DNA from: Halichondria panicea
Taxonomy: Eukaryota > Porifera > Demospongiae > Suberitida > Halichondriidae
Assembly (NCBI RefSeq): GCF_963675165.1
Contig: NC_087389.1
Coordinates: 95,001 to 159,000 of the forward strand
Direction of reading: 5' to 3'
DNA length: 64,000 nucleotides
Positions 8,401 through 64,000 of this stretch are shown in pieces. A model generated the notes under the pieces. That model saw only the letters and a list, made by a program, of their open reading frames with translations. It had not been told where the DNA came from and searched no databases. The translations under genes and the position numbers were made by a program. How positions within the stretch are numbered: the stretch's first letter is position 1; the number at the start of each line of letters is the position of its first letter.

Positions 8401-9092
8401 TGTACATCGCCCAGTGTGAAGGAGTCTTGTGGGGAGGGCTCAGCCAGTGATAGGGGACGAGCATCTTGTATGACTGGAGTTCGAATAGCAGACTGACTGT
8501 TTGTAGGTGTTTCAGATGTTGAATTGGTGAGCTGCAATTAGAGAGAGAATTGGTACTCTAAATATCTATGCACAATTGACATGCACAGTACAAGCATCTA
8601 CCAAGTATGTACGAGCAATACTGGCCATAATTATACCACCAAAAAATTAGCATAAAAATGGGATCATAAAGTGGCATCACAAGAATTGGGTACATTCAAA
8701 ATGAAAGCACATGCCTCGGTGGAAGCTAAGTAACTGCATACAAACTGAAAGAGTGGGTAATGATGGACCATAATTATTGTTAAAAACGATTGATGCCAAA
8801 AGTTCAAGTCTGGCTACATCAGCAGAGCCTTGCAGCTCTCTGCTCACTTTTGCAGCTACCAATAGCTAGCGTTGTGGTGCAGAGCTAACTACTAAGTAGA
8901 GTAGCAACACTTGGTGAACAAGTTTGGCTACGGACTCTTCTGAAAGGCTGCAATGGCATTCCAAGTAAGCAAAACTATTGAAAACGAAGCATTATTTAGC
9001 AAATCCACGAATTAAAATCCAAGAAAACATGACTAGAAGCCTATACTTGCACTTCATTGATCCTTGAGCAGCTGTAGCAGTCCACACACACG

Positions 9093-9171
<79 letters not shown>

Positions 9172-12100
9172 CCGTATGCCTCGCTTGCGCATGCGCACCG
9201 AGGCATAATAATTATCTTATGCATTCACTAAAAACGTACACAATACTGAAATTGGTAACTAGTATGTATATATACCTCTCCAATGCTTGTTGGTGGTGGT
9301 GGTTGAGAGGAGGGCGTGTCAGTAGTGGGCGGGGTCGGTGCTCCAGCTACAGCCGATAAGAATGTGTAGAGTGGGTCTTCTCTGTTTGTTGCAGCAAGTG
9401 ATGCTACGGCAGATTCTTGTGTACCATCGAATGTCGCCATGATCGGGTGGGCGGAGTTACTTGCAGTCGTCGTAGTTATGAGTTGTGACGAAACAGCTGT
9501 CGAAGCGGCCACTGAAGAGGCAGCTTGAGTAGACATGATGGATGATGTAGCATTAGAGACCTGATCCCTTGCTTCAACCACGCCTTCCATTGCAGTCACT
9601 TCTTCGTCCCTCTCTGTCAACTGCTCTCTAGTGCTACGCACAGCTGCCACTGTTTGAGCGAGAGCGTCTGCCACTTGCCTAAGACTCGAACGAAGTTGGT
9701 CCACGGACGTCGATGCATCGCGAGGACTAGAGGGTGTGGCTTGATCCGAGGGGTGAGGGGCATTGGGGGGGACATTTGTTGTATTTGGTTCTGAACGAAA
9801 GGTGATAGTTCGCGTAGCGGTGACTGTTGATGTAGGGGGTGTGGCCATTGCAGGAGAGGGTGTGGCTACAGCAGAAGCAGCAGCGGTGGTGGTTGTGGTG
9901 GTAACAGTACTTGTGCTAGTTGTGCTTTGTTGAGAGGTAGACGCTGGTGTAGTCGTTGTTGTTGTTGTTGTTGTTGTTGCCGTGGAAGCAGTGCTTCGAT
10001 TGTTGCGTCGTCGTGACGAAGAAAAAAGTTCTTCATCAGATGAATTTTGTGGATTACATTTCAGGAAGATGGCACCCCACGTTGCTTTGATAGAGTCTCT
10101 TAATTCGTGCATACAATGAACAGTGGCAGGGCCATCGATGATCGCACTTGTCTCCTCCCACCGTCCGAGAGCGTTCTGGATAACAGGCGATTCCAACTCT
10201 TCTTGAACAGACTGTTCCCGGGAGCTCGGCGATTCTATAATTATGGGGGCAAGAAGTCATCAAAATATAACAAAACAACATCAGGAGCGGAAAGTTCACA
10301 AGAAACTAACATTACAGTGACACAAAATTCGGATCAACGGTACTAAAGTTATGGCTGTTGTTCAACTACACCCCTACTCGTTTCAACAGCCTTAACTTGA
10401 GTATCGTTGATCCAATGTCAAAAATTTTCTAATTTTCTGAAAGCTTAGAAAGAGACCTTTCAAATGATGTGTTGCAATCCAAAATTTCGTGCGGGCTCAA
10501 ATTTGTCATTTTTCGGCCTTGGACAAATTGATATCTCTCAAATATTACTTTTGATGACATCATTTGAACTATTTTTTTCTAAGCTTTCAGAAAATCCTAA
10601 AAATTTGACATTGGATCCACGGAATTCAAGTTATGGCAGCCGAAAGAATCCCTAAACCATTGAATGAATCGAGTTGTAGTTGAACATCTTTCAACAGCCT
10701 TAACTTGAGTATCGTTGATCCAATGTCAAAAATTTTCTAATTTTCTGAAAGCTTAGAAAGAGACCTTTCAAATGATGCGTTGCAATCCAAAATTTCGTCC
10801 GGGCCCAAATTTGTCATTTTTCGGCCTTGGACCATGGGCTATTATTCATGGTATCGCCAAATTGGTATCTCTCAAATATTACTTTTGATGACATTATTTG
10901 AACTATTTTTTTCTAAGCTTTCAGAAAATCCTAAAAAATTTGACATTGGATCCACGGAATTCAAGTTATGGCAGCCGAAAGAATCCCTAAACCATTGAAT
11001 GAACGGAGTGTAGTTGAACATCTTTCAACAGCCTTAACTTGAGTATCGTTGATCCAATGTCAAAAATTTTATAATTTTCTGAAAGCTTAGAAAGAGACCT
11101 TTCAAATGATGTGTTGCAATCCAAAATTTCGTCCGGGCCCAAATTTGTCAGTTTTCGGCCTTGGACCATGGGCTATTATTATCCATGGTATCACCAAATA
11201 GGTATCTCTCAAATATGATTTTTTATAACACCATTTGAACTATTTTTTTCTAAGCTTTCAGAAAATCCTAAAAAATTTGACATTGGATCCACGGAATTCA
11301 AGTTATGGCAGCCGAAAGAATCCCTAAACCATTGAATGAACGGAGTGTAGTTGAACATCTTTCAACAGCCTTAACTTGAGTATCGTTGATCCAATGTCAA
11401 AAATTTTATAATTTTCTGAAAGCTTAGAAAGAGACCTTTCAAATGATGTGTTGCAATTCAAAATTTCGTCCGGGCCCAAATTTGTCATTTTTCGGCCTTG
11501 GACCATGGGCTATTATTCATGGTATCGCCAAATTGGTATCTCTCAAATATTACTTTTGATGACATCATTTGAACTATTTTTTTGTAAGCTTTCAGAAAAT
11601 CCTAAAAAATTTGACATTAGATCCACGGAATTCAAGTTATGGCAGCCGAAAGAATCCCTAAACCATTGAATGAACGGAGTGTAAGTTGATCAATGGTTCG
11701 GGGACTCTTTCAGCTGCTCTAACTTGAATTCCATCGATCCAATTTCAACAATTTTTTGATTTCTGAAAGCTTAGAAAGATACTTTTCAAATGGTGTCATC
11801 AAAGTTCATATTTGAGATATGAAAAAATTCTGTCAATCCAGCCCAATACCATGGATACCATGGTCTAAGGCCGAAAAATGACAAATTATGGCCCCAACCA
11901 AATGTTGGATTGAAACACATCAGTTGAAAGGTCTCTTTCTAAGCTTTCCGAAAATCATAACATTTTTGACATTGGATCAACAGTACGAAAGTTAATGGCT
12001 GTTGAAAGATGTTCAACTACAACCCCCCCTCTCCGTTTAATCAAAGGTTGTACGAGGTAAGTACATACGAAGCACTGTCTGTTGTCATGTGATCACAAAC

Positions 12101-47637: not shown

Positions 47638-50600
47638 TTAAATGTCAAACTGGAGCATTTTGTCAAAATCATCGAACACTTGTCCAATTTCTGATCTGTC
47701 CATGGGAGGTGGGTCTACTTTGGTCTTCTCTGTGGTCCTTAGCAACAGTGAAGGGTTGGACACACACCGCACCTCAAATACGTACTGGCCAGCTGAAGGA
47801 AACAAGATAAATGATTGAGATATGTTAGGAACAGTGATGTTGAACATACCTGGCTCAATAGTCAAGCCTTTGAAGGTGGCTCGCGATTTGTACCCATTAT
47901 TCTTGGCTATGAGTGGCTGTACTGTTCTTCCACGTAACCTTCCACCTCCTAATAAGACATTGTGCAATCAGTTAGCTCACAAGAGTGTGCATCATGCACT
48001 CACCATGCACAAGTATTTCCAGGTCACCGACAACGTAGGGATTGCTGAGTACAGAGATTTCAGGAAGCTGCAACAGAGAGAGAATGAGAGATTGAATACG
48101 GTACATCCACAGTAATTATTATAGAGCAGTCTCACCTGTTTATCACAAGACGTCCTGACCACTGGCGGCACTTCCCACCACAGATTAGTGGGCTGGCAGA
48201 CTAGTAAGGAACACAATACCTTATACAGCATAATTATAGTACCAACTCACATTTCTTCTTGAGCTGTGAAGCTTCTTGCAGCAGCAGCCTCTGATGGGAG
48301 GGGTCAGATACAACGTCCATGAGGTCCATACGACTGAGAGTAGCCAACTCACTCAGCTGGTTGAAACCCTAGAGAGAGAGAAAAACAAGTTGTCACGTAA
48401 GTCAATTGAAATCCTAGTCAGACAATATATACTCACCCTCAGGACAAAACTCTTGAGGTACTGCTGTAGACTCATTTGGTCAAACCAGTCCAGCACAGAC
48501 TTCTCTGCATGGGGAATCAGTGCAGTGATCGATGTATGGAGCTAGAGTGGACTCCATCAATATACTTACCCACACCAAAGAACTGGATCTCAGACAAGCA
48601 CGTTGTGGGGTCTCCAAAATTGTCAGCTACTATGAGCTTCCAACACTGTGTGAGTGCAGTGTCATGCATCAGCGTTCAATTAAGAGTTACAGTTAAAAAC
48701 ATCCCAAGAGTAGACCATGTACATTCTATTTGTACTTATTAGCTCACTCTGGCTGTCTCGTAGAATCCTTTGAAGTCCTGAGATTCCGAGGGGTCGCACA
48801 TCTCCTCTGACCCTACACCCTCCGCTTTGAACTTTTGCACATGTCGCCAAGATCCACTACACACCAGAAAGGGTCAAAAAATGAATGGTGTATCGTTGAT
48901 CCAATGTCAAAAATTTTATAATTTTCTGAAAGCTTAGAAAGAGACCTTTCAAATGATGTGTTGCAATCCAAAATTTCGTCTGGGCCCAAATTTGTCATTT
49001 TTCGGCCTTGGACCATGGGCTATTATTATTCATGGTATCGCCAAATTGGTATCTCTCAAATATTACTTTTGATGACACCATTTGAACTTTTTTTTTCTAA
49101 GCTTTCAGAAAATCTTAAAAAATTTAACATTGGATCCACGGAATTCAAGTTATGGCAGCCGAAAGAATCCCTAAACCATTGAATGAACGGAGTGTAGTTG
49201 AACATCTTTCAACAGCCTTAACTTGAGTATCGTTGATCCAATGTCAAAAATTTTATAATTTTCTGAAAGAGACCTTTCAAATGATGTGTTGCAATCCAAA
49301 ATTTCGTCCGGGCCCAAATTTGTCATTTTTCGGCCTTGGACCATGGGCTATTTATTATCCATGGTATCGCCAAATTGGTATCTCTCAAATATTACTTTTG
49401 ATGACACCATTTGAACTATTTTTTTCTAAGCTTTCAGAATATCCTAAAAAATTTGACATTGGATCCACAAAATTCAAGTTATGGCAGCCGAAAGAATCCC
49501 TAAACCATTGAATGAACGGAGTGTAGTTGAACATCTTTCAACAGCCTTAACTTGAGTATCGTTGATCCAATGTCAAAAATTTTATAATTTTCTGAAAGCT
49601 TAGAAATAGACCTTTCAAATGATGTGTTGCAATCCAAAATTTCGTCTGGGCCCAAATTTGTCATTTTTCAACCTTGGACCATGGGCTATTATCCATGGTA
49701 TCGCCAAATAGGCATCTCTCAAATATGACACCATTTGAACGATTTTTTTCTAAGCTTTCAAAAAATCCTAAAAAATTTGACATTGGATCCACGGAATTCA
49801 AGTTATGGCAGCCGAAAGAATCCCTAAACCATTGAACGAACGAGTGTAGTTGAACATCTTTCAATGTCAGCTAGATGCATAGCAATGCTGTATGCAAATA
49901 CCTGAGTGAATCGCTGCACTCGATCATGAAGTTGAGAATCATCTTTGGGTTATCCCTACATAATCATGAACACAGAGTATAGTTAATAAACACGAATATG
50001 TACATGCAGTATGAAGGTTGTGTAGTCCCTTAACATGATTCACCAATATTGAGGGTTTCCTCTAGAGAAAGGGTACACAGATATATACCTACCATCCCGC
50101 TATCCTGACTCCGGTGAGAGTGTACTCAGAGCCGAGGTCTACAGCCACCCAGTTGTATGCACCAGCTGCAGGTATCTTCCAGTAGCTGATGGGATCATCT
50201 GTGCATGGACACTTGATATGAGTTAATAAAATGAATGACCCTTTACTATAATTATTGCCAGGTAAAGAGTCATCTCATAAACAAACGAAAAACATAGTGA
50301 CTCAAGGTAAAGGGTCATCTCATAAACAAACGAAAAACATAGTAACTCAAGGTAAAGGGTCATATTAATAACAAACTCATAGTGACTCACTGTCCAACAG
50401 GCAGGTGGGTGGGTGCTGCTTGGTCCATGCACTGCAGTAGTCTGGAGTGGGTTGACACCATTCAGCCTTGTTCTTGAGCAGTGGATATGTGACTGTGCAC
50501 AACAGAATAGTGCATGGTAGTTACTAGGAAGTAAGTCTATGGTAGTTGCATGCACAACACAACACAACATACAGCTGCTAACAGTACTGAACGTATGTAG

Positions 50601-53600
50601 CATATGGACACTTACTGAAAAGATCGGCTGAAACTTTTTCTTTTGGAGAATCGTGAGTCTGTTGTGACTGTTTGAAATGTATACAATAATTATAACATGT
50701 AATTTAAAGCAAGACTAAACATTATAAAGCTCATAGAAAAAACACATTAATGTTAGTCTACTTAGAGAATAAATCATTAGTGGACACATAATATATAATT
50801 TTAGTGCTTATTAGTGCCTAAGAAGACAGAGAAGAGTTTAATGGTATTCACCTTTGGCACTCTGAGTGGCTTCCCACGCTGTTGAACAAACATGGAAATG
50901 AATTCATCCCTCTTGGCCTCTGGATGCTGTTTAGCTATGCTGATGGCCGTCTGTGTGTGGGTGGTGTGGGTGGTGTGTGGGTGGGAGAAATGCAAGGTAC
51001 AAGTGTACTTGGTCTAGAATTATATATTAGCATGAGAGTGTTAGGGTTTAATGGTAGCTATAGAGATATACACAGGTGTGTGGGTGGTGTGTGTGTATGG
51101 GTGGTGTGGGTGTGTGTGTGGGTGGTGTGGGTGTACCTGTCCATTGGAGACTTGTTGGGTCGGGTCTCCTCCAAACTCCAACAACAGCTGTGCCACATTT
51201 TTCCTAAGTATTTAGAGGGAGTACAGTACATGACCTAATATGCTAACACACCAAGTCCTTAATTAGATATCAATACACACAAGTCCTTGTAAGGTGATTA
51301 GCAGAATTAGCTGAGCTCACCTGAAGTATCTGATGGCTTCGTGCATGGGAAACGTGCCTGAAATGAGAGAAATTGTTAATTCTTCACTCATGCTTGACGA
51401 ATGTTGGTGTAGTCAAGTAAGCAGTACGTATCCAACGATGCTCACCTTTGTTATGATCAAAGATATTTGGGTCCATTCCAGCCTCCAGTAAGATCTCTAT
51501 GATCTCCTTACGACCTATATAGAGAGAAAGTGATGTAAGCTAGGGTCAGTCTTAGTATGCAATGACATACTATGATACAGTCCTGGGATATACCATCCAA
51601 CATCATTAGATATAAATTATTGCTCAGTTTGGGCTACCTTAATTGTTAGAAACAAAGAAGTAGTTGTTTGGTGAATGCATTGTAGACTAACCATTCTTTG
51701 CTGCCTCGATGATGGGTTTGGTCTGCTTGAGTGTACGAACATCAGCATCAATCAGCAGTGGCACTGCATCTGTGTGTGTGTATGTATGTATCAGTATAAA
51801 TTATCTTTTGAGGATTAAGCCTATTATCAGTAAGCCCCTCAAGAAAATAAATAACACTGCTAAAGGCTAACCTGAAAACAATAATTTGCTATCTTTCATA
51901 CTGACAACTCACCTATTTTGTTGAATCTGACGGCAAGGTCAAAGGGCGAATCTCCGGCCATGTTAGTGACGAGCACGTTGCAGTTATGTTGCAGAAGCTT
52001 GTTGATGGTGAAGGTCTTACCAGGAGGGCAGTACTGACAGGCATAATGCAGGGGAGTATTCCCTTCACGATTGGCTATTTCTGCCTATAGAGAGATTAGT
52101 GTTAATGACACTAATATCAATATTGACAGTATTCCCATGACACTATCAAGGACCACTACACCACCATAAGGGTACCACTACACCACTACATCACCATAAG
52201 GGCACTACACCACCATAAGGGTACCACTACACCACTACACCACCATAAGGGTACCACTACACCACCATAAGGGTACCACACATCACCATAAGGGTACCAC
52301 ACATCACCATAAGGGTACCACACATCACCATAAGGGTACCACTACACCACCATAAGGGTACCACACATCACCATAAGGGTACCACACTGTCATTGCAGTA
52401 CAATGTATGAAATCACTTGAGATAAGTTTTGGAGCATCTCAGAAGCTCTGTACGTATGTCTTCCATCCACACTTACCAGAGCTCCGTTAGCCAGTAGTAG
52501 GTCAACAATGTCTGAGCGATTGTGCCAGGCAGCAAAGTGGAGGGCAGTGTTCCTAATATATAGTAACAGGGAGGAACAGGGAGGAGTGAACATTAAAAAA
52601 CAGTCATTAATTTGTCGTTATGAGGTAGGGACACAATTAAAAGTTGGCAATATCTCGAATTGGTAGTATCAGTTTATCCCTAACACGGCAACCACTATAA
52701 GAGGTGTGTGTAGTGTTGTATGCTATGGTGCTCTAACACGGCAGTCACTATAAGAGGTGTGTGTAGTGTTGTATGCTATGTGTACGTAACTGGCAGCTAG
52801 CACACAACTACACATTGGCTTAGGCTCACACTGGCTTAGGCTCACACTGGTACTGAACACTGGTACTACACACTGGCTTGGGCTCACACTGGTACTGAAC
52901 ACTGGTACTGAACATTGGCTTAGGCTCACACTGGTACTACACATTGGCTTAGGCTCACACTGGTACTACACACTGGCTTAGGCTCACACTGGCTTAGGCT
53001 CACACTGGTACTGAACATTGGCTTAGGCTCACACTGGTACTACACACTGGCTTAGGCTCACACTGGCTTAGGCTCACACTGGTACTGAACATTGGCTTAG
53101 GCTCACACTGGTACTACACATTGGCTTAGGCTCACACTGGTATACTACACACTGGGTTAGGCTCACACTGGTACTACACACTGGCTTAGGCTTACACTGG
53201 TACTACACACTGGCTTAGGCTCACACTGGCTTAGGCTCACACTGGCTTAGGCTCACACTGGCAGTATAAATATTATACGTTACTAACAATAGCTAATTAT
53301 TATCCACTTAGCAACTCATAATAATACTAAAATTAGCACACAAAACAAGTAGGAGTGTTGATTGAAGGAGAGGACATACCCTTGATTGTCCATGGTGAAC
53401 AGCTCTGCAGAATACTGCAGGAGAGTGTAGACCACGTCCTTGTGTCCATGCAGTACAGCTAGCATGAGTGCAGTGGAGCCAGTGTCATCACGATAGTCAA
53501 CATTGATGCTAGAGGACTGCTTCTTGTTCTGGATCACCAGAGGAGGGGGGGAGTCGGAGAGACCATCACTCAACTTGTCAGAGGAGAGCAGTTTCTGGAG

Positions 53601-54110
53601 CTTGGACTGTCCCTTGAGCAGTTGCTGCAGGACAAATGCTGATGCACTACATTGTACATGGGTGGCAATTGGTTTTACAGTTTATGCAGGTGACTGATGC
53701 ATCATCTATACAGGTGCATTTAGTTAGCAGTTAAAATAAGCAGTGAGAGTGTCTTGCTAGTAAATGAGTCACTGTTGTTTCAGTACGTACACATCTACTG
53801 GTCACAAACATTGTAGAGACTATTCATTGTTTTTGTATTTTCCGGTAGGACAGTGGTGAAAATCTATAGCTAGTTTTGCTACTTGGAACCAATGACTTAC
53901 TATATCCAAAATACAGTGACACACTTTTAATAGCTAGCTTAGTAAATGAACACTAAACTTGCTAGAGCTAGCTAGCTCTACTACCTGTGGGGCCTAGTGC
54001 AGTGGCTAGCTGTGCAGTGTGGGTATATTAGTTTATTACTATTCACTCACCTCCACTTTACTATTGTTTCCAGCTGAAGCTGCCTCTAACAGTTGTGTTT
54101 CTTTCCCCAT
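47638..54110 (-). CDS. ankyrin-repeat / F5-8C-like / SAM domain protein
   Basis: The start ATG at 54110 gives MGKETQLLEAASAGNNSKVE, a typical ankyrin opening. About six ankyrin repeats follow over small exons down to about 50.8 kb (GSTALMLAVLHGHKDVVYTL, NTALHFAAWHNRSDIVDLLL, NTPLHYACQYCPPGKT). Next comes a galactose-binding, discoidin/F5-8C-like domain (WVAVDLGSEYTLTGVRIAGW, GSWRHVQKF, ARCWKLIVADNFG, CLSEIQFFGV) from about 50.2 to 48.55 kb, split by an intron that holds a satellite array. A SAM domain (LDWFDQMSLQQYLKSFV, LSELATLSRMDLMDVV) spans about 48.55-48.25 kb. The C-terminal 120 residues (GGRLRGRTVQPLIAKNNGYK, FDDFDKMLQFDI) are unrecognised. There is no signal peptide, so an intracellular scaffold role is likely. 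I know no standard gene name for this order of domains. Confidence 0.8.
48891..49865. repeat. second hairpin satellite array, same family as 10.3-12.0 kb
   Basis: Three units with gtatcgttgatccaatgtca at about 48,891, 49,227 and 49,557, giving spacings of 336 and 330 bp. Each contains both inverted arms (ttttctgaaagcttag and ctaagctttcagaaa). The array lies in an intron that splits the F5-8C-like domain. Sequence identity with the HUWE1-intron array is visibly very high, so this is a dispersed repeat family. Confidence 0.9.
50261..50395. repeat. 45-bp tandem repeat, about three copies
   Basis: ggtaaag-gtcat...gtgactcaa units begin at 50261, 50306 and 50351, immediately downstream (minus sense) of an exon donor of the ankyrin gene. 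The unit includes intronic sequence next to the donor but no coding bases. Confidence 0.8.
52145..52385. repeat. short tandem repeat (ccaccataagggtaccac family)
   Basis: More than ten imperfect copies of a roughly 20-24 bp unit, caccataagggtaccac, in an intron of the ankyrin gene. Confidence 0.85.
52800..53262. repeat. composite tandem repeat (ggcttaggctcacactggta family)
   Basis: Higher-order array built from two short blocks, ggcttaggctcacact and ggtactacacact or ggtactgaacatt, mixed irregularly. It lies in an intron of the ankyrin gene. Confidence 0.9.
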
Positions 54111-54365: not shown

Positions 54366-56025
54366 ATGAGTGCTAGTGCAAGTGAGAAGCGCTCACTATA
54401 TCTTCAAGCTAAGCAGAAAATAGGAGAGCTAGGAGTAGTGGAATTCTTTAGGTCTCTGCTTGCCTTGGACAATGTGTACGAAGGAGAATCTAAACTGTGT
54501 GTGCAATGTCACTCACACATCTCTCCTGACTTTGACTTTTGCTCTTCACACTGTGAAATGAAGTACTGGGATGAGTTCAACCATCAGTACACCTACCATT
54601 CAGGTATAATTACTTGCACTATTTGATGCAGTACTATTTAATGAATCTACTTGCAGGGGAGACTCCACTGTGCAAATTTCCCAGATGTTTCAAGACTTGC
54701 TTCGTTGAGAATTACGGTCGTGTTCATGATTATTGCAGCAAATCTCACGCTGGAGAACACCAAAAGATGAAAGAAGCAGCTGAAAGACAGCAACACACTT
54801 CCAGAAACCGGAGGGGAAAGGGTCACTCGTGGAGAGGAGGCCATCAACTAGGAGGTGGAAGTGGAGGTGGAGGTGGAGCCAGAGGTGGAGCCAGAGGTAG
54901 AGGTGGAGGTGGAGGTAGAGGTGGAGGTGGCGGTGGAGGTGGAGGTGGCGGTGGAGCAGGGACGTCTCAAGCTGGGTATTATCAGCAAGGTATGTCAGGG
55001 TGTCATACAGGGGGGAAAGGGGGGATATCCCCCCCCTAGCTCCAATTTCCCCCCCTTTCAATTATGACTGAGTGTCCATAGCTGGGTATTGAAATAACGG
55101 TTGACCTTTTTTTAGCAACATTTTCTGGTTACTTTTCTCATTTCCCCCCTCTACTTCAAAATCCTGTATGACACCCTGTATGTAGCTACTTAATTGTTTG
55201 TAGTCACTTTTTTCTGCTCCATATATAGGGCATACACGAGGAGGTACCAACTATTCTCACTGCTCGGATAGTCATGGAACAATCTATTTCTATAATCGTG
55301 GCGAACCATACTACGAGTTTACTAACTTCTTCCCTGGTGCTGCATTCAGTCTTGATGACAGTGAATGGCCTACTACTGAGCACTATTTCCAAGCCCAGAA
55401 ATTCGTTGGTACACCTTACGTCCACAAGATTCGGAATGCCTTTGGGCCACGAGATGCTTTCGAATTGTCCCGCAATCCAGCTATCTCTCGCTGGAGGAGG
55501 AGCGATTGGGAAGATGTCAAGAAGGATGTGATGAGAAAGGCTCTTTTCGCTAAATTTACTTCCCACCCAATTTTGAAAAATAAGCTTCTTGATACTGGTA
55601 AAAGAGAGCTTGTTGAACGATCTCCACATGATAGCTACTGGGGAGACGGTGGTGATGGTACAGGAGAGAACCATCTTGGAAGACTTCTCATGGAACTGAG
55701 GGAAAAGCTGCAAGGTGGTCAGTACAAGGATGTGGAACGAGATGGTATGCAAGCAGGAACGAGTTGTGGCGTTCCATCATATAACAAATTGACGAGGAAT
55801 CCATTACGTGACAACACACAATGTAAAGTAGAAGATGAAGTTGAAGACATGGATTATGAGAATACTGGGTTTCCAACTGGGTCACTGGTGTTACTAGATG
55901 ATTCGAATGAAAACGCACCTGACTATCCACCGCTTCCAACGCATTTCAATGGGAAACCATTAATACCCTCCCCATCACCTACAACCCCTGTTGCTGGTGC
56001 TGATGCTGATGCCGTTGGCACTTGA
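54366..56025 (+). CDS. NADAR (YbiA-like) domain protein with Cys/His module and RGG tract
   Basis: Exons 54366-54603, 54657-54989 and 55229-56025. Order: a helical N-terminus, a Cys/His segment (CVQCHSHISPDFDFCSSHC), a module B (CKFPRCFKTC, GRVHDYCSKSHAGEH), a long Gly-rich RGG tract that suggests nucleic-acid binding, then a complete NADAR domain of about 170 residues: YFYNRGEPYYEFTNFFPGA, WPTTEHYFQAQKF, DVMRKALFAKFTSHP, TGKRELVE and YWGDGGDGTGENHLGRLLME. These are the signature blocks of the YbiA/DUF1768 family. Bacterial and bacteriophage-related NADAR proteins remove ADP-ribose, including from guanine in DNA. The same reaction here is an inference. The C-terminal 90 residues are acidic and unrecognised. 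AATAAA lies 143 bp after the stop. Intron 2 holds a MITE. Confidence 0.88.
54996..55178. repeat. MITE with 16-bp perfect terminal inverted repeats
   Basis: CAGGGTGTCATACAGG at 54996-55011 is the exact reverse complement of CCTGTATGACACCCTG at 55163-55178. The 183-bp element fills most of the second intron of the NADAR gene and contains C/G homopolymer runs. No transposase is encoded. Confidence 0.9.
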
Positions 56026-56167
56026 ACTAAGGACTGTGTTAGCTATATTGTGTAGCTAGTCTGTATATGTGTGTTGCTGTAAGTTAGTATAGTCATAGAT
56101 AAACTATGGTACAGTGTATAATTGTACATGTGTACAGTGTTGTTGATTGATAATGCTGATTGAGCAA

Positions 56168-56173
56168 AATAAA
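56168..56173 (+). promoter_or_regulatory. candidate polyadenylation signal AATAAA
   Basis: AATAAA 143 bp downstream of the NADAR-gene stop and 72 bp before the next start codon. Confidence 0.55.
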
Positions 56174-56244
56174 CATTTAGGGGATATCCCATTATAATTA
56201 GAAGTTGATGATCACTTATATTTCACACAAACTTCTACGGTACT

Positions 56245-57887
56245 ATGAGTTCTCCTGTTACTGACTCAAGAGGTGTGCTCAGGGGAAGGTGTACCAGTTG
56301 TAATTGCTCTGGGTATCAAGGTGGAACTGCTGGACTGAAGTGCAGCATCTGCACACACCCACCAGGGAAGCATCAGAACATCACACCAGGATTTGCTGCC
56401 CAGACCTATGGTAAGCATTGAAGTGTTATAATCACTCGTTCTATAATGTTACTACTATAATTAAAGTTACTACAGGTTCAAGCCGACCAAGCAATACCAG
56501 CGATGCTCATGGTGGATACAGTTATCAAAATGTATATCGGGTAATACCGTAAGCGTTCCAATTATAGAACCAGCCTCGGGTAGGACGCCCTCTTTTATAA
56601 CGCCCATATACCACAAATAAAATCTTTTTTTTTGGTACATGTTTCTAGAAAAATAATTATTTTTTACTGGTTTTATAATTAGAACGTTTACGGTAACTAG
56701 ATCTAGGTGTTTACTTTTTTTGTACAGCCTCCAGAAACAGGTCCATGCAGTGCAAACAACTGTAACAAGCCTTGCTACTATGATCCGAGTGTTGGGGAGT
56801 TTGACTACTGCAGTCCATCGTGTAGAGACAAGCACTTGCTGCCCAAGGAAAAAAAGAGTCTACAAGATGATCTCAAAGCCTTTGAATATCAGGTGAAGTT
56901 ACCTGTATCTGGTGGTGAAAAGCGTGGAATTGGAGCACACACAGCTGGTGGAGAGTCAGAGTATCAATCAACTCAAGCATCAGGAGGGAGGCATTCTTAT
57001 AGTAGTGCTGTGTCATCAGGTAGCCAAGCAACTACAAGATCCTCCAGCTCAGGCAAAGCCCATAATATTTCCCCAAATGTTAGTGAGTGTCTTGTTACTA
57101 CAGGAAGGCAGACGACAATCAAAGTGTTTTTTCAAAAGAGTCCATCAAATGATATTGGCCTCATTGTCAGTGAAGAGATATACAGATGTGACACATTTTC
57201 TGGGGTATGCCATTATACTTTTGATCAGTCAATGTACATATTTTGTATAATGCAGCTGCTGGTGCTTGGATTTGAGTACAATACTAAAGCTGAATACCTG
57301 ATTACTACGAATGAAGTACGTGTGCTGGATGTGATCACTTCATTGAATGACAAAAAAATCAGCCCGTTAACCTATAAAGAAGAAGCAACAAAGAATAGGT
57401 CATGTTCTCTGGAACTGAAAAGATGGATTTCACTTCCTCAACTGAAGCCACTTATGGACAAAGGTACTTTTGACATGCCTGAAATCAATTTATTGTTTTT
57501 GTTTTTTACAGCCGAATTCTCCAACCCAACAGCTCTTGTTGCTGTAATGAATCCAAAAGATTATCCCAATTGTTCCACTGCAAAAGGATTTGGACTGGGA
57601 ATCACTGTAAGCCATGACTGTTGCACATACTTCTTCTGTATTGATCATTCGTTTCTTAACAGTCTCTTCTTAGTACCACCTCTGTGGTTTCTGTGACAGC
57701 AAACACACCAGCACGATTCAGCAGACTAGAGTATGGAGATGAGATAATAGCCTATGGGTTTGTGAAGAAGAACAAGCTAGAAATTGGGAAGGATGCATTG
57801 AGTCTGACGACCAATCTGGAAGAAGCTGCAAAAGATGGAAAAACACTTGTCCTAGTAGTTAAGAGACCAGTGATAATTAACTTGTAG
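56245..57887 (+). CDS. Cys-rich module protein with two degenerate PDZ-like domains
   Basis: The ATG at 56245 opens module A (RGVLRGRCTSCNCSGYQGGT, GLKCSICTHPPGKH), ending at the donor near 56,411. A short exon (about 56,476-56,538) is followed at about 56,729 by a module B (CSANNCNKPCYYDPS, FDYCSPSCRDKH). A Ser-rich linker leads to a PDZ-like domain (TIKVFFQKSPSNDIGLIVSE, VRVLDVITSLNDKKIS) and a second one (GFGLGIT, VSVTANTPARFSRLEYGDEI, LVLVVKRP). No catalytic domain was seen. The last junction is a problem: the GTAAGC donor at 57,607 leaves phase 0, but the TAG acceptor at 57,671-57,673 would need phase 2 to enter the PDZ-like frame. Either another acceptor is used or there is an indel. 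It shares modules with its neighbours, so it may act as an adaptor in the same pathway. Confidence 0.65.
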
Positions 57888-57955
57888 ATTAAGAATAACT
57901 GTGTCAAAGTGAAACTATATAATTATATGATTAGTAATAATTGTGTATAAAGAAG

Positions 57956-60220
57956 TCATTTGAATGTAATAACAAAACGTGGTAAATCATGAGCAGGGTT
58001 CTTCATCACTACAATGTCCCCATGTTTTGTATGATGAGTTCCAGTCTGTCCTAGCAACAGTTCATTCAGTAGTAGCTTCTTTCCACTCTTGCAGTAGCCG
58101 AGAGGAATGGTGGGAGATGTTGCGAAGTATTCCCCGGCACCATAGGCTTGGCCATTTCTCTTCTTTTGGTCATAGCCAGTAGTACAAATACTGTCGATAT
58201 TACTCTCTGCCGTTCCATGAAATGCAAGGCAAGTGTTTCTTTGGCTAGTGGGTAGAGACATCATTGCGCTCCTAAATTTATTGAATAAAGCACCTCCAGG
58301 CTTAGCGTGGTCGTTTTCTTTCATTGAGGCAACTTTGAGATTCGGGAATTTCTGGAGAAACTTTTGAACTTCCGGCATACTTGTAAGAATCCTCGCTGCA
58401 AATTGAATACAATAGTAGTAAAATAAAATTGTTAAGCCAGCTCTATATAATATTCATTATACCATCTCTGTTGGGGGCGTCCTTCTGTGCATGGTCTAGA
58501 CAACAGTAGTCATGGACTGTCCCTCCCTCTGTTTTCCTTCTGTTAGTGCATCCAGGTAGGCCACACTGATCTTCAACCTTATCAGCTGTAGCTGCAGGCA
58601 CAGGCATCACAAGTTATAACAACACCACCCATTCTATATCATGTATTATCAAGTATTCTAAAACAGCAGGAGTAACTTCTTGGTAAGAGTATACTAGGGA
58701 CTTTCCCAGGGGAATTTTCAGTGATTTTATCAAACCACACATAGTGGCCAGATAGCTGACAGGGACTCTCCCAGGGGAATTAAACCAATAAACAGGTGAC
58801 CCAACAGTTAAAACCAATCCTAAAATAAAGGTGACACAACAGTCCACTCTTCACATACCATAAATGCCTCTCCTCTTCCCCTCATCAGCATGGCTCTTCC
58901 CACAGTAGTCATAGGTGGCCCCAGTACTGCTGTCCACAAACTTGGGCTTCTGACAACCAGGGATGATGCACGATGAGCTGTCCTTAGGCCCAGCTTGAGA
59001 TGCAGTGGTAGTTCCAGCAACTGGTGGTGGAGCTGTGAAAAACTATAATCAAGGCTATAAATGCAATGAAACTTACTTACCCACAAGCCCTTGTTGCAAT
59101 CCAAGATTAGCATGTGTTCTCCCACAATAGTTCTCAAAAGGCCATGTATGTTTATTACAGCCAGGTAGTAGACAGTGTGTAACTCCTTTCACCACTTGCT
59201 GGTTCACCTCTACATGCAGGTACATACACAGTGAAACGTACAAGATGTTAGCTTACGTTGCCACAGAGCCTGTCTCCTCTGGTGCTCCATAGCATGAGTG
59301 ATACCACAGCACTCATGCACCGTACCACTCTCATCAACATAGCATGCATTTGGGCACTCAGCAATAGCACATGTGGCCCTTGATGTGGGTACAACAGGAG
59401 CCTGTACTGGAGTTGGTAGTGCTGCACCATCTTGGATATTCGCTGTAATAAGCATTAGCAAAACTACTAGATAGAGTTGAAGCTTACGTAATATTCCTCT
59501 CATCTTCCCCTCTTGGGCATGCGTCTTCCCACAGTAGTCATGGAGAACTCCAGTGCCACTGTCCATATACTTAGGCTGGAAACACTCGGGGATAATGCAC
59601 AGGGAATTGTCCTGTACGCCTTGTGCCACGGAGAACATACTTGAATCTATAGAGGGAGAAATAAATGGAATGGGTGAGTTTATAATTATAGGCGTACACT
59701 CACCTTGATAAAAGTTCTCTTCATATTGATTTCCATGCCCAAATTGATTATCTTCAAACATTCTCATACTTGCAGTCATTATATGAAAATGACAGTGTAT
59801 GCTTTCCATGCCCGAATTCAAGTCGAAGTCAACCGTCTGATTACAGTTGGGGAAGCCACATAATGATGATATTGGGGACGACTGAATGTTCAGAGGAGAT
59901 GCAAATGAGTTAGAAATTGGAAGAGCGACATGACTCTGATCCGTACAAGTGTTTCGGGTAGAAGTGTCTCGGATAAAAGTGTCTCCTTGCTGTGATTGCA
60001 GGGACTGGTCCAGCCTAGAGTGTCCTGCAGGACGACAGCCACATTGGGAGCACTTGAGACCACTGCTAGGGGGAGTGTAGCCTCCACAGCTAGAGCAATT
60101 CTTGCACCTTCCTCTGGAGATTCCACGGGCATCATCCATCAAGTCTCTCTCACTCTCTCTAGCTCTAGCTCTCTCGATCTCTCTCTTTCTTGCATGTAGA
60201 TCTACTCTGTGTGAAGTCAT
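57956..60220 (-). CDS. multi-finger PARP-like ADP-ribosyltransferase
   Basis: N-terminal module A (RGRCKNCSSCGGYTPPSSGL, KCSQCGCRPAGH) is followed by up to six module B copies: a degenerate one (CGFPNCNQTV), CIIPECFQPKYMDSG with HDYCGKTHA, CAIAECPNACYVDES with HECCGITHA, CLLPGCNKH with NYCGRTHA, CIIPGCQKPKFVDSS with YDYCGKSHA, and CGLPGCTNRR with HDYCCLDHA. The last exon (about 57,956-58,396) encodes a PARP-fold catalytic domain: LAFHGTAESNIDSICTTGYD, NGQAYGAGEYFATSP, GYCKSGKKLLLNELLLG and DIVVMKNPAHDLPRFVITF. The His (FHGT) and Tyr (GEYFA) of the PARP H-Y-E triad are present. The third position, in GDIVV, appears to be Asp rather than Glu, which would favour mono-ADP-ribosylation. An alternative start is the Met at 60139 (MDDARGISRGRC), which matches the sister genes better. 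Confidence 0.82.
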
Positions 60221-60337
60221 ACAATGCCAATGGGAAGCCCCCTCTTATGTAATGCTATTGGCATGTCTATTTATGCGTACCTTAACCTATTAACTCGAGC
60301 TAGCTCTACGTCTACTATACTAAACAAAGTCTCTAAG
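60221..60337. promoter_or_regulatory. 117-bp divergent promoter between the two PARP-like genes
   Basis: The start codons at 60220 (minus) and 60338 (plus) are 117 bp apart, or about 200 bp if the shorter start at 60139 is used. Head-to-head placement suggests shared transcriptional control. No specific factor site was recognised. Confidence 0.5.
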
Positions 60338-62080
60338 ATGAGCTCCAACACTGATTCCAGAGGTGTACGGAGAGGTGATTGCAATTGCCCTCAATGTGAC
60401 TGTGACCAGTATGATGGAGGAACTGAAGGAATGAAATGCAATTACTGTGGTCACCCTCCTGGAAAGCATGTGAACATGAACACAGGCATTGCTTCTTTGG
60501 CACCAACAACTACTTCGTTCTTACCATCTAGCTCTTTCCATTCTACTATGGTTATGGATGATACCAAGTTCCCTAGTACCCAGAGTCAACCTTGTTTTGA
60601 TCTCAACACGGGCGTAGATGTACAAGATGGTTACAGCCCCCAATTTACTGACCACTCTGCACCCGATCAATCGACTATGTCGATGTCACCTCAAAGAGCT
60701 GTGCAATCACCACCGAGTCAATTTGATATTATGTCTTCCATATTACGAAGTCCCTTCAAGCGGCCACGACCAACTACTGCTCCCCCACCAGCATTACGTT
60801 CACCTGCACCTCAGCTAGCCCTAGCCCGTATGTTACTCTAATAATTTTATATAAAATTAATGATTAAATTATATTCCTATGCTTACAGTTCCACTTGACC
60901 AGCATTGTAAGCTCAGTGGATGCTCCAGGTGGTCGTGTACATGACTGTTGTGGGAGAAGACATGCGACAGAGTATGCCAAACAAAATTGTAAAGTTCTCA
61001 TGCTGTAACAGTACTTGTCATACTCTTTAGACATACTTCTATAGGTGAAATTACATCCGAGTTGCAATGCAAGACTCCTGGATGCTATAAACAGAGGTAC
61101 CCAAATGGCCAAGGAGGACATTTTGATTACTGTGCCAAATATTGTCGTGACAGTGGAGGCAAACCACAAGGGTCAATGCTTGCTTCAGGTAAGAGCTACT
61201 AAATGTGTACATGTTATAATACTATAAATTTATAGCTTCAATGCCGGACATGGCTCTGACAGGCGGATATGGTATCTGTCAGTTCCCTCAGTGTGCAAGA
61301 CCCAAGTACTGTGATCCTGCCAATGGGAGGGTGCATGACTTCTGTAGGAGATCCCATGCTTACCAAGCCAGAGTGCAAGGTACTTATTGCTGTGATGTAG
61401 ACTTATTATTATGTAGCTCTTGGGTATTTCCCAGGTGATTCCCCAAGTGATTCTCCAAAATGATAGTGGCCATTGTTATTAATGTGTCATGCTTTTGTTA
61501 TTCATACTTCTCAGGAATCACCACTAGCACTGCTGTGAATATCAGAGTAGCCACTGCACAAGAGCTCTCCACAATTGCAGGGAAGTTCAAGCAGTCATGG
61601 GCTAGTGCAAAGGGGGCCTGTCCACCAGTTTCATTTGTCTACATCATCAGTAACTCACAACTCACACAAAGATGGACCACGTACAGAAATGGGTTACAGA
61701 AGAAGGACGTTGAAGAGTACTACCATGGTACTAAACTGACATGCAACATTACAGCGACTTCAACTCTGTGCAACGATCAACATTGTGGTGCATGTGGTAT
61801 CTCAAACACTGGACTGGATCGAAGATGCATTCAAAAGAACATCAAGTTTCAGAGGTTTGGTCATGGCTTTTACCTCGCTCCTAATTCATCAAAATGCCAT
61901 GACTACACCCAAGGATGCTCCTCGTATAGAGCTATGCTGTTGTTTGATGTTTGTCCCGGAAATAAATCCAACCTCAAGAAAGACGATGCAAAATTAAAAG
62001 CACCACCTCAAGGATTTGATTCTGTTTATGGACGGAAAGGAGTCCGCTTGAACTATGTTATGGTTAGAACATGGGCATGA
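60338..62080 (+). CDS. module A/B PARP-like ADP-ribosyltransferase, truncated at the C-terminus
   Basis: Module A starts right after the ATG (MSSNTDSRGVRRGDCNCPQC, GMKCNYCGHPPGKH). A Ser/Pro-rich linker leads to module B copies: a broken one (CKLSGCS in one frame, GGRVHDCCGRRHA in another, about 60,890-60,990), CKTPGCYKQRYPNGQG with FDYCAKYC, and CQFPQCARPKYCDPA with HDFCRRSHA. The last exon (about 61,515-62,080) is a PARP-like domain: EYYHGTKLTCNI, a Cys/His insert CNDQHCGACGISNTG, RFGHGFYLAPNSSKCHDYT, AMLLFDVCPGN and GFDSVYGRKGVRLNY. His and Tyr of the triad are present. In this type of ART the catalytic Glu follows LNY(D)E. Here the protein reads LNYVMVRTWA and stops inside an inverted-repeat element, so the Glu is missing. 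It may be inactive. Confidence 0.75.
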
Positions 62081-62175
62081 GGTATCTATGTGTTATAGTG
62101 TCCCAAAGCTCGAGGGCTTTAGCCCGAGGGATGAGGGACACTATAACCATAGATACCGAATGCACATGTTCTAAC
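62063..62175. repeat. 113-bp hairpin element overlapping the stop codon of the PARP-like gene
   Basis: The left arm (62063-62104: gttagaacatg...ggtatctatg...ttatagtgtccc) and right arm (62135-62175, its reverse complement with a few mismatches) enclose a small secondary palindrome (ctcgagggctttagcccgag). The left arm encodes the last residues and TGA of the upstream gene. Confidence 0.85.
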
Positions 62176-62389
62176 TGATTTAGATCCCAAAACCTATTGG
62201 CTACTAGAAATGCACTAGCTTAGCAACAGTCAACCTATATAAACAGCCAACCTAGCAACTGCATCATTATTCTTTTGAAAACTAATATCTGAAGTTGGCA
62301 TCTCTGTGTCTCTACTAAGTCTCTATTCAAGTCAACCCTGTTCCTCCACCTCAGTTTGATGGACAAAATTATAGTCCTAGCTAGCTCCA

Positions 62390-62710
62390 CCCACAAAACA
62401 GAAACAACCAGCTCCTCCCCCAGTTTTGCAGCAAACAAGCCCAGCACACTTCCCAAGAAACGAGCGGCTCGTACTACTCTCACAAAGCGAAAGGAAGACA
62501 CCTAAGCTATAATTTGCAGCAAACAAGCCCAGCAAACGAGCGGCTCCTATACTACTCTTGAAAAAAGCGAAAGGAACTTTAGGAAGAAGCCAAAGCTAGA
62601 ATCCCAGCACTTCCATACATCCAGCTCCTCCCCCATGCAGCCTTGCAGCAAAAAAGCACAGCACACTGCCCAAAAAACGAGCGTCTCCTACTACTCTCGA
62701 ACAAAGCCAA
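62390..62710. repeat. degenerate tandem repeat, about three copies
   Basis: Blocks of cagcaaacaagcccagca, aaacgagcggctc and tactactct...aaagcgaaagga recur about every 80-150 bp. They fill part of the 1,056-bp gap between the two genes at 62,081-63,136. The remainder of this gap shows no gene. Confidence 0.7.
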
Positions 62711-63136
62711 AAAAAAGAAACTAGAGCTTCTCTCTTTCATTCTAGTTCTGTTATTATATTGCATCTAGCTACAATAATTTTTATGTTATTACATGTGTAT
62801 CTTCTTGTAAATCACAATACAATGTACAATGTTGTAGTTTGTAGCCCAGAGCAATCTATAGTACCCGGTACTATAGCTCATAGTTCCCTGCTAAATACAC
62901 TCAAATGGGATCTAAGAAGAAATAGTAGTGTACAACGCTGATGCTGCCCTTCCAAAATGTATTATTGTGTACCAAAAAGACAGTATAGGGAAAATAGCAA
63001 CAGGATAGCACTTTTCATTTTTTCAGTAGCATAGCGTAATACAGTAGAAGTTTTTTCTATACAAAAACATTGTGTGAGCTGTATTATACATTGTCCTCCA
63101 AAATGCACTCATGCTAATAGCTAAGACTTCATCTAG

Positions 63137-64000
63137 CTAAGAGTTCATCTGTGATTGCATAAAGCACTGGTCACACCAGCCCTTCCCTGGGTTAGCTTGT
63201 TTCACTCGACACTTGGAGCACATCTTGCCACCAGCTGTCGCTGGCATGGACTGAGTAGAAGGGCCCAGGGGCATAGATCCACCAGAATGGGAGATAGGCA
63301 AACTATCATATGGTAGCATCGGAGGGCCTTGTCCTTGCATTTTAGAGTAGTAGCTCATGGCCCCACGTTTATCAGTAGAGGAAGGCCCACTGGAAATAGC
63401 AGATGATCCTGGTGGCTGTCTGTAAGCCCTTGGAGAGCTGCTGCCTTGTTGAGCTGCATGATTAGAATAAGTAGCAAGATTATAAAAAATAAAACCCACA
63501 CCTGTCTTCGTGGCAGCAACCTTCTGTTGGTGAAAGGATGATTGAAGTTCATTGAACTTCTTAGCACATGTCCTGCTACAGAAATCGTGGATCTTGTCAC
63601 CTTCTCTTCGTTTTGGAAAAGTACATCCAGGACATTTACAAGTTCCATAAGTTACTAGCTGAAGAGGTTGTTCATGAGCGTCATATCTTGGTTCGAACCC
63701 GGAGGCGCCCTGGGCCTGGGACATCATCTGACCAGACGTCACGGGTGCACCCGGTTGCTGAGGACGAGGCTTGCGTACTGCGAGTGAAACAAAGAACTAC
63801 GTTAGAAAAACGTAGATAGCTGGTGATAGATTTACATACAGAAATGATATAGAAACACATACGGACATGTCACATACGATGACAACCATAGCTAGCTAGC
63901 TATACGTATATACATACGTTTATCAGCTCCAGCGTGCGTATGAGCAGGGCAGCCACAGTATTCACAGTCAGTGTAGCTGTTTGGATCCTCAGACTGGTAC
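63137..64000 (-). CDS. module A/B Cys-rich protein, 5' part cut by the window edge
   Basis: The C-terminal exons read to the stop at 63137. The segment at 63,919-64,000 encodes the end of a module A-like motif (SYTDCEYCGCPAHTHAGADK) and runs off the window. The next exon (from about 63,778) has RKPRPQQPGAPVTSGQMM and a module B (CKCPGCTFPKRRE, KIHDFCSRTCAKKF). After an intron of about 51 bp (near 63,457-63,507), a Ser/Pro/Gly-rich linker leads to a final CxxC pair (MCSKCRVKQANPGKGWCDQC). No catalytic domain is visible in the part present. The C-terminus looks complete. It belongs to the same module family as its neighbours. Confidence 0.7.

Follow-up and report, generated by a model that had tools for sequence, protein, structure and literature searches.

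A tandem gene array combining NADAR domains, PARP-type transferase domains and a shared Cys/His module in the sponge Halichondria panicea

The stretch of Halichondria panicea DNA studied here (C13:95001-159000, 64,000 nt, hereafter the window) belongs to a 131-Mb genome. From position 54366 to its right end the window carries five intron-bearing genes: g1 encodes a protein with a NADAR domain, g2 has a PDZ-like domain, g3 and g4 have PARP-type ADP-ribosyltransferase (ART) domains, and g5 has fingers only. Splice models were made by hand and domains were assigned with Pfam profiles and their curated cut-offs; the gene order, strands and end domains (NADAR, PDZ-like, two PARP-type, CxxC tail) which an earlier note had read from the DNA were upheld by these models and searches. 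The five genes of that note are there, but the true extent of the cluster is larger. When the contig was extended rightward and the genes bearing the modules were listed, we found two further units as well as two additional genes, g6 (a third transferase) and g7 (a second NADAR), both present in every unit. As detected by tblastn, the whole array consists of three diverged tandem units at C13 149-207 kb with seven genes each (g1-g7), about 21 genes, all seven being found three times as far as C13:207 kb; each unit has two NADAR genes and three transferase genes. DNA identity between the units is 83-97% over the aligned blocks (compared up to C13:189 kb). Unit 3 also contains a chimera (C13:204151-202781, minus strand), in which a g5-type module A region is followed by the C-terminal domain of g2; this is direct evidence of domain shuffling, and together with the three tandem units it bears out the proposed local duplication with domain shuffling.

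Gene g1 (54366..56025, plus strand; exons 54366-54603, 54657-54989 and 55229-56025) encodes 455 amino acids. Its NADAR domain (PF08719) scored 133.9 bits (E-value, E, 8e-39; cut-off 35.1), and in the PDB it matched 2b3w, YbiA (E 1.5e-36). The catalytic domain, located at 55258..55713 on the plus strand, is of the YbiA type and in the alignment keeps the equivalents of E43, K50 and E125, described as the catalytic residues of the P. nicotianae NADAR (PMC11543638). Upstream of it lie one copy of module A (54671..54751, plus strand; 31.2 bits with the chlamydial profile described below) and, in agreement with the earlier note, a Gly/Arg-rich, RGG-like tract (54851..54970, plus strand, approximate limits from the translation). 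The g7 product consists of module A and a NADAR domain (127.8 bits, E 6e-37, same cut-off), its sequence having no RGG tract. Identity to E. coli YbiA is 47.9% for g1 and 49.7% for g7. All six NADAR domains of the array exceed the Pfam cut-off, read through without interruption and possess the E/K/E residues (the alignment columns were counted by hand; the chain numbering of 8bau runs 2 higher, consistently at all three positions), and the glutamate in the last strand places them in the YbiA family. Genome-wide, NADAR was found only in the array (six domains) and at C4:7.23-7.26 Mb.

The NADARs tested so far, eukaryotic ones included, are reported to take ADP-ribose off guanine, and those of bacteria to form pairs with ART toxins (PMC11543638, PMC11125620). 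By analogy, the most likely chemistry of the g1 and g7 proteins would be hydrolysis of ADP-ribosyl-guanine, or else cleavage of another N-glycosidic bond. The Gly/Arg tract of g1 fits a nucleic-acid target, but it proves nothing.

Gene g3, on the minus strand (60139-57956, seven exons, 550 amino acids), contains a second Cys/His-rich element, module B (60106-60020), five copies of module A and a C-terminal PARP-type transferase, whose exon (57956..58395, minus strand) has the motifs FHGT ... GAGEYFATS. The domain scored 40.5 bits with PF00644 (E 2.9e-10, cut-off 26.7); its closest PDB matches, PARP12 and PARP13, were weak (E 0.004), and the H and Y of the catalytic motif are present, the third position being unclear in the sequence. 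Gene g4 (60338..62057, plus strand) has module B (60386-60469), two copies of module A (61068-61145 and 61277-61360) and a PARP-type transferase (PF00644, 37.9 bits, E 1.8e-9) truncated within the third catalytic motif: in the window copy the H and Y motifs are present and the third is split by an insertion. The g6 domain scored highest of the three (52.8 bits, E 5e-14), and CxxC motifs are present in this gene too; g6 is 40-43% identical to g4, and its PDB matches were PARP4 and the tankyrases (best E 2e-5). Complete sets of H, Y and NYEE or NYDE motifs occur in two copies each of g4 (units 2 and 3) and g6 (units 1 and 3). Judged from these resemblances, g3 and g4 look like different transferase subtypes, as had been proposed, with the reservations that the PARP12/13 match of g3 is weak and that the subtype of g4 is read through the PDB matches of its relative g6. 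In the Pfam searches of g3, g4 and g6 we found no ART family other than PF00644 at E<=1 and no DarT family; CCCH finger, WWE and macro domains were not found either. PARP exons are scattered over many sites of the genome (56 matches); at one such site, C15:690000-772000, they form an array in which the matches are strong and six of them contain stops within the matched part.

The two remaining genes have the modules but no catalytic domain, and their products would serve as adaptors. Gene g2 (56245..57887, plus strand; module B 56290-56373, module A 56746-56823) has a C-terminal domain whose similarity to PDZ_2 (PF13180; 20.8 bits, E 4.7e-4) is below the cut-off of 27 and is a resemblance only. 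The finger-only gene g5 (63137..64000, minus strand; module A 63640-63563) encodes a CxxC...CxxC tail and leaves the window, running to C13:159182 (= 64182), so that its 5' part with module B is outside. Nothing in g5 exceeded a Pfam cut-off; the zf-FCS / MYM-type finger (PF06467) reached 16.5 bits against a cut-off of 22.4.

The insertion which interrupts g4 of the window in its last exon (62058..62915, approximately 855 bases, right edge approximate) is lacking in units 2 and 3, where g4 reads on. Its left edge is a palindromic repeat of 123 bases (62058..62180), which a genome search found at at least 40 places with 99-100% identity (20 at 100%, the window copy included) among 342 candidates, and which is probably a young mobile element. 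Behind the insertion an orphaned piece coding for the C-terminus of the g4 transferase, including the stop codon, is still readable (62916..63008, plus strand). Frame breaks were also found in g6 of unit 2, at the HGT motif, and in g3 of unit 3, between the H and Y motifs; any of the three breaks may be an assembly error. The start codons of g3 and g4 face each other head to head across 198 bases in unit 1 (60140..60337, a possible shared promoter), 237 bases in unit 2 and 8357 bases (about 8.4 kb) in unit 3. The writer g6 and the eraser g7 likewise lie head to head, with a distance, taken up to the module exon of g7, of 282 bases in unit 1 and 292 in unit 3, but of 3.5 kb in unit 2. In both split pairs the minus-strand transferase is a broken copy; in unit 1, g4 is broken but its pair is not split. 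A link between the splitting of pairs and the breakage of transferases is only suggestive.

As to the catalytic domains, whose inactivity the earlier note had named as a possible refutation, the erasers are intact in their E/K/E residues, and the broken g4 of the window is one of three broken transferases. Comparison of the catalytic exons between units gave ratios of nonsynonymous to synonymous substitution (dN/dS) of 0.08-0.36 in ten comparisons and of 0 in an eleventh, the third pair of g4, which rests on two changes. By gene the values were 0.24-0.36 (g1), 0.08-0.11 (g7), 0.19 (g3, one pair), 0.29-0.31 (g4) and 0.25 (g6, one pair), whereas the tails of g1 and g7 gave 0.75-1.64 in four comparisons. 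It must be noted that these are Nei-Gojobori estimates from small counts, that the tails align less well, and that broken copies were excluded. The catalytic domains are under purifying selection.

These observations bear on the possibility that the array is decaying, with the writers being lost and only the erasers kept, which would protect the organism from foreign ADP-ribosylating toxins, whether made by pathogens or by symbionts. One transferase per unit, one of each subtype, is broken (3/9), as opposed to none of the six NADAR domains. However, this difference is not significant (two-sided Fisher test calculated by hand, p ~0.23), each transferase subtype retains two uninterrupted domains, and the uninterrupted copies have dN/dS values of 0.19-0.31, so we regard decay as highly improbable.

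Another alternative, concerning g1, g7 and the modules, is a function of the RNA-association type. There is a precedent in SNA-3, a nematode protein of SL1 trans-splicing, which like the g1 product is a multi-domain animal NADAR protein and requires its conserved NADAR residues; the available part of that report mentions neither a transferase partner nor module A, and describes SNA-3 as nematode specific (PMC9303266). NADARs were also reported in retrotransposons, where a role connected with RNA was suggested (PMC12477816). The Gly/Arg-rich tract of g1 would agree with such a function. On the other hand, g7 is without this tract, the catalytic residues are intact and under selection, and SNA-3 is not known to have a partner transferase. 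We give this explanation little probability.

The feature that ties the different genes together is module A, which has the form C-x4-C-x(10-17)-C-x3-[HC], the third Cys often lying within HDYC (HDYC-x3-H). It occurs in all five window genes, in ten copies (one each in g1, g2 and g5, two in g4, five in g3). Module B (C..C.C ... C..C.HPPGKH) heads g2, g3, g4 and g5 and was not seen in the translated splice model of g1, thus the statement that the five genes share the same two modules holds for module A, but not for module B, which the NADAR gene does not have. Neither module matched a Pfam family over the cut-off. A structural model of module A (pLDDT 87.6, pTM 0.55) consists of a small finger and a C-terminal helix; structural matches were weak. 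The make-up of module A is treble-clef-like, and it would bind zinc.

Genome-wide, the modules were searched exon by exon with scoring of the best candidates, a procedure that can overlook diverged copies. A strict module A pattern gave 21 matches in the 131 Mb (a reversed control pattern gave 2): 15 in the array, two at transferase exons on C1 and four elsewhere. Two of these four strays lie in open frames without correctly spaced first two Cys residues, the other two have no motif-bearing open frame of at least 40 amino acids. With a 404-residue query containing the g3 modules, matches at E<=1 were confined to the array and the two C1 loci, and the ten matches of a module B query at E<=10 likewise all fell within the array. 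The C1 loci (C1:2997485, L044, and C1:10825737, L045) are dispersed g3-type transferase exons with an adjoining module A exon; the module at C1:2997485 contains a stop codon, and this copy is probably decayed. A strict regular expression for the modules had no match in 28 non-array PARP loci (of 30 loci fetched for the 56 PARP matches) and in four C4 NADAR loci, with flanks of about 1.5 kb; several of these loci fall on one and the same gene, and some known module variants escaped the expression as well. The view that module A is a common zinc finger unrelated to ADP-ribose genes, which had been named as a possible refutation, is not borne out in this genome, where the searches made found credible copies only in the array and at the two C1 transferase exons.

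Beyond this genome, a pattern of 26 bases for HD[YF]CG..THA was run on viral_contigs, where this one strict pattern had no match, and on genome_contigs (84,980 prokaryote species), where it was found at two places. One of them (L068; JAFGQY010000042.1, a Parachlamydiales metagenome-assembled genome) is a single open reading frame (ORF) comprising a NADAR end (28.6 bits, below the cut-off) and then two copies of module A. The other (L069; JALQUC010000017.1, 2-541), on a contig labelled Gracilibacteria, is a single module A at the contig edge and is not interpretable. Compared with 232 Chlamydiota genomes, the L068 ORF had matches in 29, mostly to the NADAR part alone. Where the match extended past the NADAR part the ORFs were read, except for those of a seventh such genome (G063), which had stops in the match; all six (L086-L091) contain a NADAR domain over the cut-off and, after it, one or two modules, and their gene contexts varied. 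A joint profile (A4), in which these modules are included, matched 12 of the 232 genomes at E<=0.01: seven at E<=1e-8, one (G113) at 7e-5, and four weakly, in short or stop-broken frames. Every genome with E<=1e-8 has NADAR and module A in one ORF. This fusion exists in 7/232 Chlamydiota genomes, in reversed domain order: NADAR precedes module A in Chlamydiota and follows it in the array. Genome G112 carries a second module ORF besides its NADAR protein. In G113 an ORF (L099) has two modules and no NADAR, and its N-terminal part resembles, by eye, the NADAR protein of G112; this ORF parallels g5.

The similarity of the modules was assessed in both directions. With a profile built from the ten window modules, the seven chlamydial proteins scored 13.7-89.8 bits, the best of 1050 shuffles being 5.8; with a profile built from chlamydial modules only, all 11 array copies examined (ten from the window and that of g7) scored 7.6-40.5 bits, as compared to 6.1 for the best of 1050 shuffles and 5.9 for the best of 1098 other window frames. 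The module A of g2, at 7.6 bits, barely exceeds these controls. A recent transfer between this organism and chlamydiae is not favoured by the reversed domain order and by the pairwise NADAR identities: the six chlamydial NADARs compared are 30-42% identical to those of the array, which are nearer to E. coli YbiA.

How much these findings demand a common function has to be weighed against a simpler explanation, namely that the array is an ordinary lineage-specific family, whose members were duplicated together by proximity. The NADARs would then serve metabolite housekeeping as N-glycosidases of the riboflavin type, the transferases would act separately on proteins, and the module would be an inherited linker or a general protein-binding finger. 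YbiA-type NADARs are described as N-glycosidases that act on riboflavin intermediates in plants as well as bacteria (PMC11543638, PMC9303266), g1 and g7 are close to YbiA in sequence, and the three units are explicable by tandem duplication alone. This explanation does not account for the presence of one module on NADARs and on transferases of different subtypes, for the restriction of the module, in the searches made, to the array and two related transferase exons, and for the joining of module A with NADAR in bacteria in the opposite order. We consider it rather unlikely, if less so than the two alternatives discussed above.

In our opinion it is fairly likely that the array encodes a system of reversible ADP-ribosylation, in which writers and erasers have a module for targeting or docking in common and which would operate in the manner of the bacterial DarT1-NADAR or YarT-YbiA pairs. 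The products of g3, g4 and g6 would be the writers, marking a target with ADP-ribose, and those of g1 and g7 the YbiA-type erasers that remove the mark. Module A, by binding zinc and a shared partner, would bring g3, g4, the erasers and the adaptors to one target or complex, where the mark could be set and removed at one place, while g2 and g5 would link these components or compete with them. Guanine in DNA or RNA would be, by analogy, the first candidate substrate, because the tested NADARs act on guanine and bacterial NADARs guard against ART toxins. A role in immunity or stress is a guess, and an antiviral role could be proposed by analogy alone.

Several points weigh against a reversible system of this kind. 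The system is predicted from sequence, and the genes of one unit could be neighbours by history only. One of the writers, g6, has no module A, and with a third of the transferase copies broken some writers may be dispensable or decaying. The substrate of the NADARs may be a small molecule, since E. coli YbiA acts in riboflavin metabolism. The chlamydial modules match, below threshold, several other fingers (EsV-1-7, Zn_ribbon_LapB, RING-like, FCS), and their similarity to the array modules may in part be what short Cys-rich fingers in general share. Finally, none of the eight module-bearing Chlamydiota genomes has a PARP-family match, suggesting that module A needs no PARP partner; such matches are present in 16 of the 232 genomes (over the cut-off in 11), thus 0.55 would be expected among eight, and the absence is no evidence either way. 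In one Chlamydiota genome a single contig carries eight PARP-family matches on about 28 kb (G151:C6:54179-81765).

An ankyrin-repeat gene to the left of g1 (window ~49940-54110, minus strand) belongs to a duplicated block, with a second copy in L001 (~5700-9770). The neighbouring genes in the window (HUWE1, COMM-domain and TLC-domain genes) are eukaryotic and compatible with an animal; matches to TULP and SOCS-box were below the cut-off. Contamination or a prokaryotic insert is ruled out by these genes, by the introns of the array genes and by the 6.57-Mb length of the contig that holds the array.

It is useful to compare the array with known systems. In the bacterial DarT1-NADAR pair (DarTG1; PMC11543638), as in the array, an ADP-ribosyltransferase gene lies beside a NADAR with conserved ADP-ribose-binding residues, which removes ADP-ribose from guanine. 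The array is not DarTG1: its transferases belong to PF00644 and not to DarT, and its NADARs are of the YbiA type (E in the last strand) and not of the BC4488 type (D). Moreover, the array genes are eukaryotic, have introns, include several writers and erasers, and share modules. Closer in the NADAR type is YarT-YbiA of myxobacteria (PMC11125620), where a YbiA-type NADAR adjoins a transferase gene and the eraser reverses the action of a toxic writer. This is, however, a two-gene bacterial operon for which the available part of the report describes no modules, and YarT is placed in the ART subclade HYD1, whereas the array writers are PF00644 members.

PARP12 and PARP13 (ZAP) for g3, and PARP4 and the tankyrases for g6, are the nearest PDB sequence matches of the transferase domains, the former weak. 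In PARP12 and PARP13 zinc fingers precede the catalytic domain, as they do in the array, but Pfam showed no CCCH finger, WWE or macro domain in g3, g4 and g6, and modules A and B match no Pfam family over the cut-off. A short repeated finger of the C-x4-C ... C ... H type, similar to module A, is EsV-1-7 (PF19114) of brown algae and giant viruses (PMC12477816, PMC12993054). The EsV-1-7 profile gave no match at E<=10 with the module regions of g3 and g7 and nothing over the cut-off in this genome; one chlamydial module pair reached 20.9 bits (E 3e-4), below the 25-bit cut-off. EsV-1-7 has C-x2-H where module A has C-x3-H.

Taken by its sequences, the array suggests a matched writer/eraser system such as has until now been known in the form of bacterial toxin-antitoxin pairs. 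In a more specific form of this idea the array would be an animal multi-gene counterpart of bacterial ART-NADAR pairs, its writers acting on guanine in DNA or RNA and its erasers being held at the same site by the shared zinc module, while the module-NADAR coupling in chlamydiae would be separate, perhaps a counter-measure to host marks; this we regard as doubtful.

In the literature covered, which was partial and consisted of titles and the beginnings of abstracts, no animal NADAR-PARP array and no module A on NADAR proteins was described. The function of NADARs in eukaryotes, animals included, was called unclear (PMC11125620), and the ADP-ribosylation of nucleic acids is described as poorly understood in higher organisms (PMC13036486). 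The locus offers a concrete set of proteins, predicted writers, erasers and adaptors, most of them with one module, for reversible and possibly nucleic-acid ADP-ribosylation, and module A provides a sequence handle by which such systems may be found in bacteria and eukaryotes.

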